Positions 4,954 to 17,849 of a stretch of DNA of 34,859 nucleotides are shown one piece after another (the first letter of the stretch is position 1; every line of letters starts with the position of its first letter). The stretch is from Planctomycetota bacterium (lineage in GTDB: Bacteria > Planctomycetota > Planctomycetia > Pirellulales > Pirellulaceae). Both the position numbers and the translations under genes were made by a program. The notes beneath the pieces were generated by a model. It was not told where the DNA came from, searched no databases, and worked only from the letters and a program-made list of their open reading frames with translations. The stretch lies in contig RFIQ01000228.1 in NCBI GenBank assembly GCA_003695565.1, positions 1-34,859 on the forward strand, in the 5' to 3' direction.

Positions 4954-5760
4954 TCACACCCACACACCTTGAAAACCGCAGTCCGGCGAGACTAGTCGAG
5001 GGATAACGTTCCAGCGATCCAGCTCCGCAGCCAACGCCAGATCGTCTTGGTAGCCGGCGGCTATCAAGTTTTTCCCACCATCTGTTTGTGCAAAGAAAGT
5101 TTGGATGCTTTCTCTCTCCAGCGGCTGCCCTGACTGCGGATCGCCAACATGCTTTGAACAAACGCGGTTCCACAATGCAAGTGCCTGTAGGCTGTCTTCG
5201 TCGGTGACGGGAAAGTCACCAGCCGCCAGAATGGCACCCGCCGTCAGCAGGTCCTCGCCAGCGATGGTTCCATTGGTTCCCGCGCACAGTATCCGGATAT
5301 CGGCGGGCGAGGGGCCGGCGCGGCTCGACTTCCACAAGAAACGGGCAATAGCCTGGCGATTCAGCAGCGAACCGAGCAGAATCGTGCCGGCACGCTGGGC
5401 CGCGGCCACGGCCCGCGTTCCATTGGTCGTGGTGAAAATCAGAGTTCTTCCCCCGACGCGACCGCGGGTGTACTCGCTGGGACTGTTGCCCAGATCGAAC
5501 CCGGGAATCGGTTTGCACTCCCGCTCCCCGCACAACAGGACGGGACCGCTCAATGCATCGCGCTGCGCCATTGCCTCGGAAATGCTACCGGCAACATGGA
5601 TGGCCGATGCCTGGTGGGCCAACGCCGTGCAGGCACAGGAAGTGAATCGCAGCGTATCGATGACGACGACCGTAGTTCGCTGGTCCACCGCCCCCAGTCG
5701 TTCGGGCAGGGTCGCCACACGGATGTTCGGTCGCTCTGGTTGGGTTGGCGTGTTCATCAT
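4954..5760 (-). CDS. 2-phosphosulfolactate phosphatase (ComB) family protein
   Basis: VVIDTLRFTSCACTALAH, LLCGERECKPIPGFDLGNSPSEY, LIFTTTNGTRAV motifs typical of ComB. Start at MMNTPTQPERPN (5760) preferred over 5850. Confidence 0.85.
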   Translation of the reverse strand: MMNTPTQPERPNIRVATLPERLGAVDQRTTVVVIDTLRFTSCACTALAHQASAIHVAGSISEAMAQRDALSGPVLLCGERECKPIPGFDLGNSPSEYTRGRVGGRTLIFTTTNGTRAVAAAQRAGTILLGSLLNRQAIARFLWKSSRAGPSPADIRILCAGTNGTIAGEDLLTAGAILAAGDFPVTDEDSLQALALWNRVCSKHVGDPQSGQPLERESIQTFFAQTDGGKNLIAAGYQDDLALAAELDRWNVIPRLVSPDCGFQGVWV

Positions 5761-5854
5761 GCACGTTGTACGGCATGGGGAGGGAACTGTCACGCCCCAT
5801 GCATTCCTGTCATGGTGGCCGCGCGTCGATTGCGTAGAATGAGGATCCATCGCG

Positions 5855-6000
5855 GATTCCGGCAGGGACTGCCGGGCGACTTTGGGGCTGGAGCGGAAGG
5901 CAGGTTACAAGTTTCCGGCAGGAACAGGTGGGCGACTTTGGATTGGGGCGGAAGGTAGGTTGGAAGATTCCGGCAGGGACTGCCGGGCGACTTTGGGAAT
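5855..6000. repeat. ~55/56-bp tandem palindromic repeat array upstream of recQ
   Basis: Units with ttccggcag at 5857, 5913 and 5968. CCGGCAG-GGA-CTGCCGG hairpin at 5859-5875 and 5970-5986; degenerate copy at 5915-5931. Each is followed by gcgactttgg. Confidence 0.9.
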
Positions 6001-6012
6001 GGGACTGAGAGA

Positions 6013-8628
6013 ATGAGCGTCAGCCAGCAAGCCGACTCCTTGAGCAACGCGTTGCAGCAGTTTGGGCTGACCGAGTTCCGGCCTGGGCAGCGTGAGGTGA
6101 TCGAAGCCATCCTGGCGGGGCACGATTGCATGTGCATCATGCCCACCGGCGGGGGAAAGAGCTTGTGCTACCAATTGCCTAGCGTGATCCGTGCAGGATT
6201 GACGATCGTCGTTTCGCCTCTGATCGCCTTGATGAAGGACCAGGTCGATTCGCTCCAGGCCCGGGGGATCCCGGCTACGTTGATCAACAGCACCTTGTCC
6301 GCCGCCCAGCAACAGCAGCGGTTGCAGGAAGTGGCAGCGGGGAAATACCGCCTGGTGTATGTGGCCCCGGAACGGCTGCGCAATCCGCGGTTCGTGGATG
6401 CGATTCGGGCCACGCCGATCCAGTTGTTGGCTATTGACGAGGCCCATTGCATCAGCCAGTGGGGCCACGACTTTCGCCCCGATTATGCCCGCATCGGCCA
6501 GTTTCGCGAAGTGCTTGGCGGGGTGCAAACCATCGCCCTGACGGCCACGGCCACGCCGCGCGTGCGCGACGATATCTGCGATGTACTGCGTCTGAGGAAG
6601 CCCAAGCAGTTCATGAGCGGTTTTGCCCGCCCGAATCTCCACTTCGGCGTGGTACAGGCCAACGCCGATCGTGAGAAGCTGGAACAGGTGGGACGTTTTC
6701 TCCAGCAGCAACCGGGGGCGGGAATTATCTACTGCGCTACCCGCAAACGATGCGATACCGTCGTCGAGTACATCGCCGAGCAGCTCCATATTCCCGTCGG
6801 CGCGTACCATGCCGGTTTGCTACCCGAGCAGCGTCGGGCGATCCAGGATCGTTTCATGAACGATGACTTGCGCATCGTCGTAGCCACCAATGCATTTGGC
6901 ATGGGAATCGACAAGCCCGATTTGCGTTTCGTAATCCATTTCAATATGCCCGGCTCGCTGGAAGCGTATTATCAGGAGGCCGGGCGCGCGGGGCGCGATG
7001 GTCTGCGCAGCACGTGCGTGATGCTGTACGCCTACCAGGATCGGTATATTCAAGAATTCTTTATCGACAATCGATATCCCTCCCGCGAGCTGATTCAGCA
7101 GGTCTACGAATTCCTGCAGGAAATCGACGAGGATCCGATCGAGATGACCATGGAGGAGATCAAGACGGCCCTCGGTTTGAGCGTCTCCGCCGAGGCCATC
7201 GGTAGTTGCTTGAAAATTCTGGCGCGGACACGCGTGCTGGAACGGCTGGAAGCCGGAGGCGGGATGGCGCGGGTCTGCCTGGACAGCAACCTGCCCACCC
7301 TCGTCGACTTGTTGCCGCGAGAGGCAAAGACGCAGCGAACCGTGCTGCGGGCTCTCGAACAAATGGTGGGTGATCGGCGGGGCGAGGAGGTGTACGTCCA
7401 TCCCGATGCGCTGTCCAGACGCACGCAGTTGGATCGCAAGCAGATCCAACGGGCGTTGCGGGAATTGAACAAGCTGGAGGCGGTCGATTACGTACCACCG
7501 TTTCGTGGCCGGGCGACCCACTTTCGCCGCCGCGATGTGCCGTTCGAACGGTTGGGGATCGACTTCGATCACCTTCGCAAGATGAAGGAGGTCGAGTACG
7601 AACGGCTGAACCAGGTGGTGGGCTACGCTCAGTCCAGCCTTTGCCGGCAGCGGGCGATTTTGCGTTACTTCGGCGATACCTCCGCGGACAACTGTGGTCA
7701 ATGCGATCGGTGCCAGCGGCGGCGTGGCTGGCCGCAGATCCCCGCCCCTGCAACGGCGGCCGCCAACCCGACTCCGGGGCAATCTGGCGAACCGGGCCAA
7801 ACCGGTTCTCCCAGTGGCAACGACCGAGCGGTCGGTGCCGATCAGGAGGCCGATCAGGCGGTGGTGTGTGCCGGCGATGATCCGTTGGTGCTCGCTGCCT
7901 TGGAAGCAATCGTGGACGCGGTGCGCAGGACGCACGGCCGAATTGGAAAACAATTGATTGCACAATTCTTGTGCGGTTCGCAGAACGCCAAAGTCCAGAA
8001 GATGGGGCTGACCCGGCTGGCCGGTTTCGGCATGCTGTCCGATTTGCGACAGGCCGATGCCGTCGAGGCGCTCGAAGCGTTGTTGCATGCCGGAGTTTTG
8101 ACGCAGCACGAGGTGACTCGCAATCGGCCAACGATTTCGGTTTCCGAAGAAGTGGGGCAGGGGAGGGAGGTCCGGACGGCGTTGGCTCGCGTTCCCCTCG
8201 ATCGAAGCCTGGCCGAGAAACTGCAGGCCATCGGCCGCCGCGTGGCCCGACCCCAACAGGCTGCCCAGCAGCGGATGGGGGAACAGGCCCGTCGCGAAGG
8301 GCAAGAGGCCTCTCCCGCACCGGCCCCGCGCGATCGCCATCGGGTCGATCCGCCGCCGCAGCAGCAGCGGGATGCAGCGCAGGGGGAAACCGCCTCCGAT
8401 TTCACCTGGACGATCATGCTGTTCCGCCAAGGAGCCGATTGGGGGCAGGTTCGCGCGATTCGGCGGATGTCTGATGACGAACTGGCGGCGAGTCTGTGCG
8501 ACGCATTGGCAGCCGGGAGGGCTTTGGAGGCGAAGTGGATCGCTTGCCCGCAGGATCAAACGCCGACACCCGGTCAGCAACGCGTCCTCCGCGAGTTGCG
8601 GCGGCGACGGGCCGCCGGTCTGACGTAG
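6013..8628 (+). CDS. recQ: ATP-dependent DNA helicase RecQ
   Basis: MPTGGGKSLCYQLP (Walker A), IDEAHCISQWGHDFRPDY (DEAH), FGMGIDKPDLRFVIH, EAGRAGRDG; zinc cluster C-RQRAILRYFGDTSADNCGQCDRC. Confidence 0.97.
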   Translation: MSVSQQADSLSNALQQFGLTEFRPGQREVIEAILAGHDCMCIMPTGGGKSLCYQLPSVIRAGLTIVVSPLIALMKDQVDSLQARGIPATLINSTLSAAQQQQRLQEVAAGKYRLVYVAPERLRNPRFVDAIRATPIQLLAIDEAHCISQWGHDFRPDYARIGQFREVLGGVQTIALTATATPRVRDDICDVLRLRKPKQFMSGFARPNLHFGVVQANADREKLEQVGRFLQQQPGAGIIYCATRKRCDTVVEYIAEQLHIPVGAYHAGLLPEQRRAIQDRFMNDDLRIVVATNAFGMGIDKPDLRFVIHFNMPGSLEAYYQEAGRAGRDGLRSTCVMLYAYQDRYIQEFFIDNRYPSRELIQQVYEFLQEIDEDPIEMTMEEIKTALGLSVSAEAIGSCLKILARTRVLERLEAGGGMARVCLDSNLPTLVDLLPREAKTQRTVLRALEQMVGDRRGEEVYVHPDALSRRTQLDRKQIQRALRELNKLEAVDYVPPFRGRATHFRRRDVPFERLGIDFDHLRKMKEVEYERLNQVVGYAQSSLCRQRAILRYFGDTSADNCGQCDRCQRRRGWPQIPAPATAAANPTPGQSGEPGQTGSPSGNDRAVGADQEADQAVVCAGDDPLVLAALEAIVDAVRRTHGRIGKQLIAQFLCGSQNAKVQKMGLTRLAGFGMLSDLRQADAVEALEALLHAGVLTQHEVTRNRPTISVSEEVGQGREVRTALARVPLDRSLAEKLQAIGRRVARPQQAAQQRMGEQARREGQEASPAPAPRDRHRVDPPPQQQRDAAQGETASDFTWTIMLFRQGADWGQVRAIRRMSDDELAASLCDALAAGRALEAKWIACPQDQTPTPGQQRVLRELRRRRAAGLT

Positions 8629-15448: not shown

Positions 15449-16111
15449 GTGAGTACTCCGCCCGATGGCCATCGCCTGTCAAATGCCCAACCAGCGACCG
15501 ATTCGGCGAAAGATGACGCGGGAACTGGATGCCAGCCGCTCGAAGCACCACCTGGGGAGCACGCCGGGGCGGAGCGAGTCCACCGAGGTTGCCACCACGA
15601 GGAGGATACGTGGAGTACCGCCGGCACCTGGCGGCAGTTGGACCCGAGGTCGATCGCGATGTCCCGTATCGTGGGAGCGATCGCCGCGACGGTGTTGACG
15701 ATTCTGGCTCTGGTTGGCGTCGCGACCGCGTGGCTCACCGTTTCGTGGCCTCTGTGGGGCATCGGCGCGTTATTGTGCCTGGCCATGGTGGTGGTGGCGA
15801 TCGGTTGGATTGTCGCCTGGTGGTGGCCGCCCTTGGCGTTTCGCCACGCGCGATGGCGGTTGGACGCCGCCGGGTTGGAGATCTACCGCGGGGTGCTGTG
15901 GAGGCACCGTATCGCCATCCCTGCACACCGCGTCCAGCACGTCGACGTGGCTCAAGGGCCCATGCAGCGGATGTTCGACCTGGGGACCTTGATTGTCCAT
16001 ACTGCAGGAACCCAACATGCATCGGTGGAGTTGAGCGGGTTGAACCATGGGGAGGCTATGCGTCTGCGCGATTTGTTGATCGAGTTTCGAGGGGGCAACG
16101 ATGTCGTCTGA
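15449..16111 (+). CDS. Bacterial PH-domain (bPH2/DUF304, YdbS-like) membrane protein
   Basis: Two TM helices followed by WRLDAAGLEIYRGVLWRHRIAIPAHRVQHVDVAQGPMQRMFDLGTLIVHTAG, typical bPH2 pattern. GTG start at 15449 or ATG at 15659. Confidence 0.82.
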   Translation: MSTPPDGHRLSNAQPATDSAKDDAGTGCQPLEAPPGEHAGAERVHRGCHHEEDTWSTAGTWRQLDPRSIAMSRIVGAIAATVLTILALVGVATAWLTVSWPLWGIGALLCLAMVVVAIGWIVAWWWPPLAFRHARWRLDAAGLEIYRGVLWRHRIAIPAHRVQHVDVAQGPMQRMFDLGTLIVHTAGTQHASVELSGLNHGEAMRLRDLLIEFRGGNDVV

Positions 16112-17849
16112 CCGTCCTGAGCCTGGCGATCTTCCGGCTGCAGACCAGAGAGGACGTCCGGACATGCCCGTAATGGCCGAGCCGGCGACGGTCGTGGACG
16201 CCGAGCCGGCCATGGCTCGATTGGCGGAACCGAATCACCTGCATCCGTCCTCGGTCCTGTTCGAGGTCCTCTCGCATGTTCGCCAGTTGATCTTGCCCAT
16301 GCTGCTAGGGGCGGCCAGTGCCGTTCAAGGGAGTATCCTCGGCGGGGGTGTCGCAGGGGTGATCTTCGCCATCGCGGTGGGGTTTACCCTGCTGCGGTAC
16401 TTCACCCTGAAGTACCACATTCGTGACGAAGACCTGGTGGTTACCGAGGGACTGTTGTTCCGTCGCGTACGGGTGATTCCGATTCGGCGCATTCAGAATG
16501 TCGACTTGGTCCAGAACCTGTTGCATCGGTTGTTCGGAGTGGCCGAAGTGGTTATCGAGACGGCGTCGGGAGGTGAGCCGGAAGCTAAGCTGCGGGTGTT
16601 GCGGCTGGATCAAGTCGCTGTATTGGAAGACGCCATTCGCGCGGTGTCGGGCGGAACCATGATACCTGCCCCGAGTCTTGTTGGTTCAGAGATCCGCGAG
16701 GGACTCGCGGGCGACTCTGATGCGGCGAGTCTTGTTGATGCGAAGATCCGCGAGGGACTCGCGGGGCACTCTGCAGCAAACGAATTCGCGAGCGGCGCCG
16801 CGCAACCTGCGCCGAGCCCAACACCGCAGAGCGACGAAGTCGTTGTGCACCGTATCCCTATCAGGCATCTCGTGTTGGCTGGAGTGGCCAGCAACCGTGG
16901 CATGATTCTGGTCGGAATGTTGCTGGGGTATGTGGTTCAACAGCAGGATTTCGACGAGCGCTTCGACATCGACGCGTTGGCCGGTTATGTACCCCAGTCT
17001 ACCGATTGGTGGGTGACGGCGATCTTGATTGCCGCGGGCGGCCTGGCCGCCATCGTTCTGCTGCGCCTGCTCGGCATTGCCTGGTACATCCTGCGGTTCT
17101 ACGATTACAAATTGTCGCGCCGCGGCGATGATCTGCGAGTGGCGTGCGGATTGTTCACGCGCGTATCGGCCACGGTGCCGCGGCGGCGGATCCAGTTCAT
17201 TTCCGTGCACCGGCCCTTGTTCCTGCGCTGGATGGGGCTGGCCTGCATCCGCATCGAAACGGCCGGAGGTGCCGGCAAGGGGATGGAGGACGCCAGCAGC
17301 ACGATTTCGCGCCGCTGGTTTTGCCCGGTGCTGGCGGACCGGGATGTCGATCGACTGCTGCGAGAACTGCGGGCGGATGCGGCATTCGCTTGGAACGATC
17401 TGCAATGGTTGCATGTCGCACCGCAAACCGGCAAACGGTTGACACGCATCGCGCTGGTGGCATCGATTGTGACCGGGGTGGCCGGATACTGGTTCTGGCC
17501 GCCCTGGGGCTGGTTGGTGGGCCCGGCCCTGTTTCCCCTGCTGGTTCTGCTGGTGTGGAAGAAGGCCAAGGCCCGGCGGCTGGCCACGACCGGAAGTTGT
17601 GTCCTGTTCCAAAGCGGGTTGTTTACTCGAAAGTTGAGCCTGGCATTTCTAGATCGCATCCAAGTGCTCGAGGTGCGGCAAAGCCCGTTCGATCGCCGAT
17701 GGCAGATGGCCAGCCTGCGGATCGATACGGCGGCGGCTGGTCCGGCCGACCATGTGATCGACGCCAGGTTCTTGAGCCAGGGGGTGGCCCAGCAGTTGTT
17801 GGAACAATTGCGCGCGTCGAGCTCCCTGCACACGCCCGCATGGCAATAA
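16101..17849 (+). CDS. Bacterial PH-domain (bPH2, YdbT-like) membrane protein with several PH modules
   Basis: Repeated PH signature (EDLVVTEGLLFRRVRVIPIRRIQNVDLVQNLLHRLFGVAEVVIETASG; DLRVACGLFTRVSATVPRRRIQFISVHRPLFLRWMGLACIRIETAG; SGLFTRKLSLAFLDRIQVLEVRQSPF). Overlaps the upstream gene by 11 bp. Confidence 0.85.
   Translation: MSSDRPEPGDLPAADQRGRPDMPVMAEPATVVDAEPAMARLAEPNHLHPSSVLFEVLSHVRQLILPMLLGAASAVQGSILGGGVAGVIFAIAVGFTLLRYFTLKYHIRDEDLVVTEGLLFRRVRVIPIRRIQNVDLVQNLLHRLFGVAEVVIETASGGEPEAKLRVLRLDQVAVLEDAIRAVSGGTMIPAPSLVGSEIREGLAGDSDAASLVDAKIREGLAGHSAANEFASGAAQPAPSPTPQSDEVVVHRIPIRHLVLAGVASNRGMILVGMLLGYVVQQQDFDERFDIDALAGYVPQSTDWWVTAILIAAGGLAAIVLLRLLGIAWYILRFYDYKLSRRGDDLRVACGLFTRVSATVPRRRIQFISVHRPLFLRWMGLACIRIETAGGAGKGMEDASSTISRRWFCPVLADRDVDRLLRELRADAAFAWNDLQWLHVAPQTGKRLTRIALVASIVTGVAGYWFWPPWGWLVGPALFPLLVLLVWKKAKARRLATTGSCVLFQSGLFTRKLSLAFLDRIQVLEVRQSPFDRRWQMASLRIDTAAAGPADHVIDARFLSQGVAQQLLEQLRASSSLHTPAWQ
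16672..16776. repeat. 54-bp in-frame tandem duplication carrying two CCGCGAG-GGA-CTCGCGG palindromes
   Basis: cgagtcttgttg at 16672 and 16726 (period 54 bp = 18 codons); palindromes at 16694-16710 and 16748-16764. Encodes SLVGSEIREGLAGDSDAA / SLVDAKIREGLAGHSAA. Confidence 0.92.

Follow-up and report, generated by a model that had tools for sequence, protein, structure and literature searches.

Tandem hairpins between comB and recQ

Whether a small array of near-identical hairpins lying between two divergent genes serves one of them, or has come to rest there for other reasons, is the question raised by the region in front of recQ in a contig of a Planctomycetota bacterium of the Pirellulaceae (assembly GCA_003695565.1, contig RFIQ01000228.1). 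The window, by which we mean the whole stretch of 34,859 nucleotides analysed here, comes from an assembly of 4.8 Mb in 625 contigs that is 85% complete. A previous sequence-only reading had described tandem hairpins before recQ together with related copies in a YdbT-like gene, and both sets were recovered at the same places (Table 1). Its estimate of about 2.7 units of 55-56 bp agrees with the TRF result, but the array ends 16 nt, and not about 13 bp, before the recQ ATG. Two intact hairpins (CCGGCAG-GGA-CTGCCGG) enclose a third, decayed copy.

Table 1. Repeat copies and neighbouring features in the window (coordinates on the forward strand)
Feature	Position	Strand	Remarks
comB-like 2-phosphosulpholactate phosphatase	4954..5760	-	start ~5760 set from relatives; recQ synteny in relatives
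TAGAAT, putative -10 box of recQ	5835..5840	+	resembles TAnAAT boxes of relatives
REP-like copy 1	5853..5886	-	core 5858-5881, hairpin 5859-5875; stem class CCGGCAG/CTGCCGG; covariance model (CM) 47.1 bits
Three-copy head-to-tail array	5855..5996	.	period 55-56; TRF period 55, 2.6 copies, score 198
REP-like copy 2, decayed	5909..5942	-	core 5914-5937; 4/7 Watson-Crick stem pairs; CM 31.5 bits
REP-like copy 3	5964..5997	-	core 5969-5992, hairpin 5970-5986; stem class CCGGCAG/CTGCCGG; CM 48.2 bits
recQ	6013..8628	+	DEAD, Helicase_C, RecQ_Zn_bind and RQC domains
YdbT-like protein	16101..17849	+	three bPH_2 domains; copies 4 and 5 in inter-PH linker
REP-like copy 4	16688..16721	-	core 16693-16716, hairpin 16694-16710; stem class CCGCGAG/CTCGCGG; gene reads IREGLAGDS
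REP-like copy 5	16742..16775	-	core 16747-16770, hairpin 16748-16764; gene reads IREGLAGHS

The TAGAAT hexamer upstream of the array may represent the -10 box of recQ. In several relatives a TAnAAT box is found 51-107 nt upstream of the recQ ATG, and in the window this distance is 178 nt, with the array in between. The array appears to have been inserted into the presumed recQ leader, lengthening the distance from box to start codon, and it may lie in transcribed leader by accident of this insertion, in which case any effect on recQ expression would be a side effect. A consensus scan near recQ found no sigma-70 promoter, a terminator scan of the same surroundings found no terminator, and the Rfam search of the window gave zero matches above gathering score, which places the hairpins in none of the structured RNA families of that database.

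The sequence-only reading had proposed a dedicated promoter or 5′UTR element of recQ, which could work as an RNA attenuator or as a protein-binding site. In this regard, the array stops just short of the ATG, the TAGAAT box would put it in the leader, and this leader folds slightly better than its shuffled versions (z -1.85, with 10/200 shuffles equally good). Such a role is nevertheless very improbable: the middle copy is decayed, about 100 copies of the repeat lie beside unrelated genes in both orientations and with no significant orientation bias, and the repeat was found upstream of recQ in none of 14 same-genus genomes, despite the comB-recQ divergence being retained in 8 of the 11 relatives checked.

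Sequence and structure of the repeat unit

In its reference orientation, which is the minus strand of the window, the repeat has the consensus 5′-CCCAK-AGTNGC-CCGNNAG-TCC-CTNNCGG-A-3′ followed by a weak ACCAGC. In this unit of about 33 nt a single base separates the unpaired GTNG tag from a 7-bp stem with a TCC loop, and the conserved span reaches from about 5 bases upstream of the core to about 28 past the first base of the core. Among 103 copies, the tag reads GTCG in 41, GTAG in 25 and GTGG in 9, being degenerate in the remainder, and the strict GT[AG]G tag, one nt from the hairpin foot, is present in 34. A CA dinucleotide occurs 3 bases upstream of the core in 61% of the copies, compared with a background of 7%. 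The gaagat reported as kept upstream of the hairpins is indeed present in two of the four intact copies of the window, but not in the other two.

That both arms have positions 4 and 5 of the stem swapped, as originally noted between the recQ and the YdbT-like copies, is correct, and the swap extends to the whole family. Further copies with conserved stem pairing do exist in the genome, where the covariance model found 102 matches at E<=0.1; among 48 aligned copies 94.6% of the stem cells are paired, all slid registers failing, and 21 two-sided pair changes were counted against 5.6 +/- 1.6 in shuffles (0/500). For the 103 copies, pair 4 is C-G in 77 and G-C in 17, and pair 5 is C-G in 76 and G-C in 23. 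Perfect stems of three main classes account for 66 of them (CCGCCAG 30, CCGCGAG 22 and CCGGCAG 14), and CCGTCAG, CCGCCGG and ACGCCAG are rarer paired variants. The claim that the palindrome and not the primary sequence is maintained is not supported, however, since the TCC loop is found in 99/103 copies, the AGT preceding the stem is conserved at 93-97% and five of the seven stem pairs are 91-95% identical. Conservation concerns the pairing of the stem as well as the primary sequence of tag, loop and most stem positions.

One-arm intermediates are few (CCGGCAG/CTGGCGG, for example, in 2 copies), and adjacent copies with switched stems at locus L099 suggest that a stem switch can occur inside an array; the swaps may go back to few events, inherited by sub-families. 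A purely mutational origin of the compensation could be envisaged, with one arm repaired from the other through quasi-palindrome correction by template switching and the copies multiplying by replication slippage. Both the intermediates and the switched L099 neighbours fit this idea, as does a slippage-like 19-bp triplication of tag and left arm at L105/L010 (described below). We consider it improbable, given that it leaves unexplained the dispersal to dozens of unlinked sites as well as the conserved unpaired tag with its preceding CA. Mutational compensation of the stem can be compatible, moreover, with the reading of the repeat as a REP-type element that is developed below.

Copy number, placement and orientation

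Seven matches to a degenerate pattern of the repeat were found in the window, where shuffles gave 1.8 +/- 1.4 and 0/100 reached seven. For the genome, the pattern with <=3 mismatches gave 116 matches against 5 for a reversed-pattern control, and a loosened pattern shifted one base in register, which served as negative control only, gave 0. Several contigs terminate at or near a repeat copy, as expected for repeats.

Gene contexts were assigned from hexamer gene calls (gene score of at least 15) on 61 sequences, namely the window and 60 contig stretches. Intergenic DNA, which makes up 18% of these sequences against 82% covered by genes, holds 80 of the 89 classifiable copies. Divergent intergenic regions contain 25/55 copies for a 41% share of the intergenic bases (p 0.58), and between co-directional genes 16 copies are in the opposite and 11 in the same orientation (p 0.44). 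Orientation agrees with intergenic GC skew for 23/66 copies in unmasked sequence and for 24/66 with the copies masked (p 0.036), a difference that may be only apparent, as degenerate C-rich fragments remain. Neither strand shows an excess of G-T pairs (6 vs 11). Taken with the placement and the lack of significant orientation bias, this points to an element acting at the level of DNA and not to a directional RNA signal.

Intergenic regions with several copies carry them in the same orientation, head to tail, in 18 of 19 cases, most spacings being 28-86 bp; the genome of the window does not, in this respect, show the inverted pairs that define BIMEs and REPINs. A CRISPR was rejected on account of the variable spacing and the dispersed single copies. 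At L105:3473-3582, which is the same site as L010, the tag and left arm occur three times at 19-bp intervals, with no right arm, resembling a slippage intermediate.

The two copies in the YdbT-like gene, both perfect CCGCGAG-GGA-CTCGCGG hairpins, sit in an inter-PH linker of variable length, which is a tolerant site for them. Rickettsia palindromic elements (RPE) are inserted in frame in genes, and the linker copies resemble them in being palindromic repeats read through within a protein, with the difference that intragenic copies are here the exception (9/89).

Placement bears as well on the possibility that the repeat is a dispersed site for a host protein, such as a nucleoid protein, a regulator or gyrase, selected across many intergenic regions. 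The direct-repeat clusters with mixed spacing, a tag and loop strongly conserved in sequence, and the lack of depletion between divergent genes, unlike in many REP families, would all suit a binding site. Copies nevertheless follow intergenic length and not promoters, few lie <20 bp from a gene start (4/105 gene-start sides), most of the genus lacks the repeat, and a protein binding the duplex needs no strand-asymmetric tag next to a paired stem, so that we find this explanation hardly probable.

Distribution among relatives

Among 242 Pirellulaceae genomes, only two have the pattern: the genome of the window, with 53 exact matches, and the same-genus genome G009, with 6. G009 has 17 covariance model matches, among them inverted pairs that face tag to tag and carry a new paired outer base (ACGCCAG/CTGGCGT), as well as head-to-tail units of 33 bp with a GTAG tag. 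At four G009 loci (L053, L055, L056 and L057) the inverted repeat pairs adjoin paralogous glycosyltransferase-like genes, and part of the copy number of this genome seems to derive from segmental duplication. In a scan of named genomes, Pirellulaceae bacterium KatS3mg111 had six loci, whose flanks are the same as those of G009 copies, and one other PVC MAG had two matches, the rest being single matches that are probably due to chance. As far as searched, the family is confined to one planctomycete genus.

RAYT genes and other repeat families

RAYT/TnpA-REP enzymes act on short hairpins that bear a GTNG tag (PMC2817692, PMC8266576, PMC6006769). Cleavage by TnpA-REP at CA/CT has been described (PMC8266576), and the CA located 3 bases upstream of the core fits this specificity. 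The genome holds one RAYT above the NCBIfam cut-off (NF047646, 180 bits; L058:1350-2240, G000:C446), which has GTAGGGTGGGACAAGC.../GGTGGGCCGGCG repeats on either side and forms with them a REP/RAYT unit that belongs to another family. RAYT-like loci were examined in seven genomes and none had the present repeat nearby, nor was a RAYT gene flanked by inverted copies of this repeat, the arrangement of a REPtron, seen. As the assembly is 85% complete, it is possible that a cognate RAYT gene is absent from it.

Other families are apparent in the same genomes. The RAYT-like genes at L203 (G009) and L060 (G000:C464) lie near TTCCCAGGCNGAGCCTGGGAA-type hairpins, a third family. Near the ends of the window there are two direct-repeat pairs, 1-58/245-302 (93% identical) and 34640-34702/34733-34795 (87%), which share an inverted ACGTGGCTTGCA-like motif as a link and possibly belong to another dispersed repeat family.

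A probable lineage-specific family of REP-type elements

The array in front of recQ is likely to be part of a lineage-specific REP-type family, that is, of small non-autonomous DNA elements. A palindromic unit of this length in about 100 mostly intergenic copies corresponds to a REP, and the 7-bp stem, the TCC loop and the three paired classes fall within the 7-20 bp stem, 2-5 nt loop and complementary stem variants of such elements. These units would become dispersed over intergenic DNA and be amplified locally into head-to-tail clusters, probably through mobilisation in trans by a RAYT/TnpA-REP-type transposase, which we regard as the most likely mechanism. Such an enzyme would recognise the hairpin in single-stranded form, with AGTCGCCCGCCAGTCCCTGGCGGA as its putative substrate, and would cut and join it; the joint conservation of pairing, tag and loop would follow from this mode of recognition.

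GTAG-tagged REP elements, which include GTMG/GTRG variants and planctomycete families such as those of R. baltica (Di Nocera et al. 2013, PMC3733652), offer the closest parallels. As in these, the unit falls within 20-40 nt, carries its GTNG tag unpaired on the 5′ side of a 7-bp stem that encloses a 3-nt loop, and forms sub-families with complementary stems at high copy number in intergenic and a few intragenic positions; unlike in these, GTCG is the commonest tag, there is no depletion between divergent genes and the cognate RAYT was not found. The REPs of the Stenotrophomonas and Marinomonas group 3 TnpA-REP proteins (PMC8266576, PMC2817692) are likewise short and perfectly palindromic, with a tag followed by a hairpin (e.g. 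AGTAG...) and a CA/CT dinucleotide beside the unit as a possible cleavage site, and differ in the sequence of stem and loop and in the repeat-flanked RAYT gene that was not seen here.

Some observations count against an assignment to REPs. The only RAYT above cut-off is flanked by a different family, none of the RAYT-like loci looked at in the seven genomes stands beside the repeat, and about two thirds of the copies depart from the strict tag. An empty site at base resolution was not seen, the relatives being too divergent. Moreover, head-to-tail clusters are lacking or under-represented in most known REP families (PMC3733652), whereas here they dominate. It is conceivable, though rather unlikely, that the GTCG/GTAG-tagged hairpins form a family without a RAYT of its own, which would multiply head-to-tail via another single-strand enzyme or by slippage-based copying and would enter promoters and leaders as freely as other intergenic DNA. 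The best reading is that of a new lineage-specific REP-like family with unusual head-to-tail clustering.

Concluding remarks

Compensatory changes in the stems of repeat copies are not in themselves a sign of an RNA regulator, and what was supposed to be a control element of recQ becomes a family of mobile repeats. The two sister genomes differ in the arrangement of their copies, head-to-tail clusters in one and tag-to-tag inverted pairs in the other, and offer a natural comparison for the origin and multiplication of REP elements.
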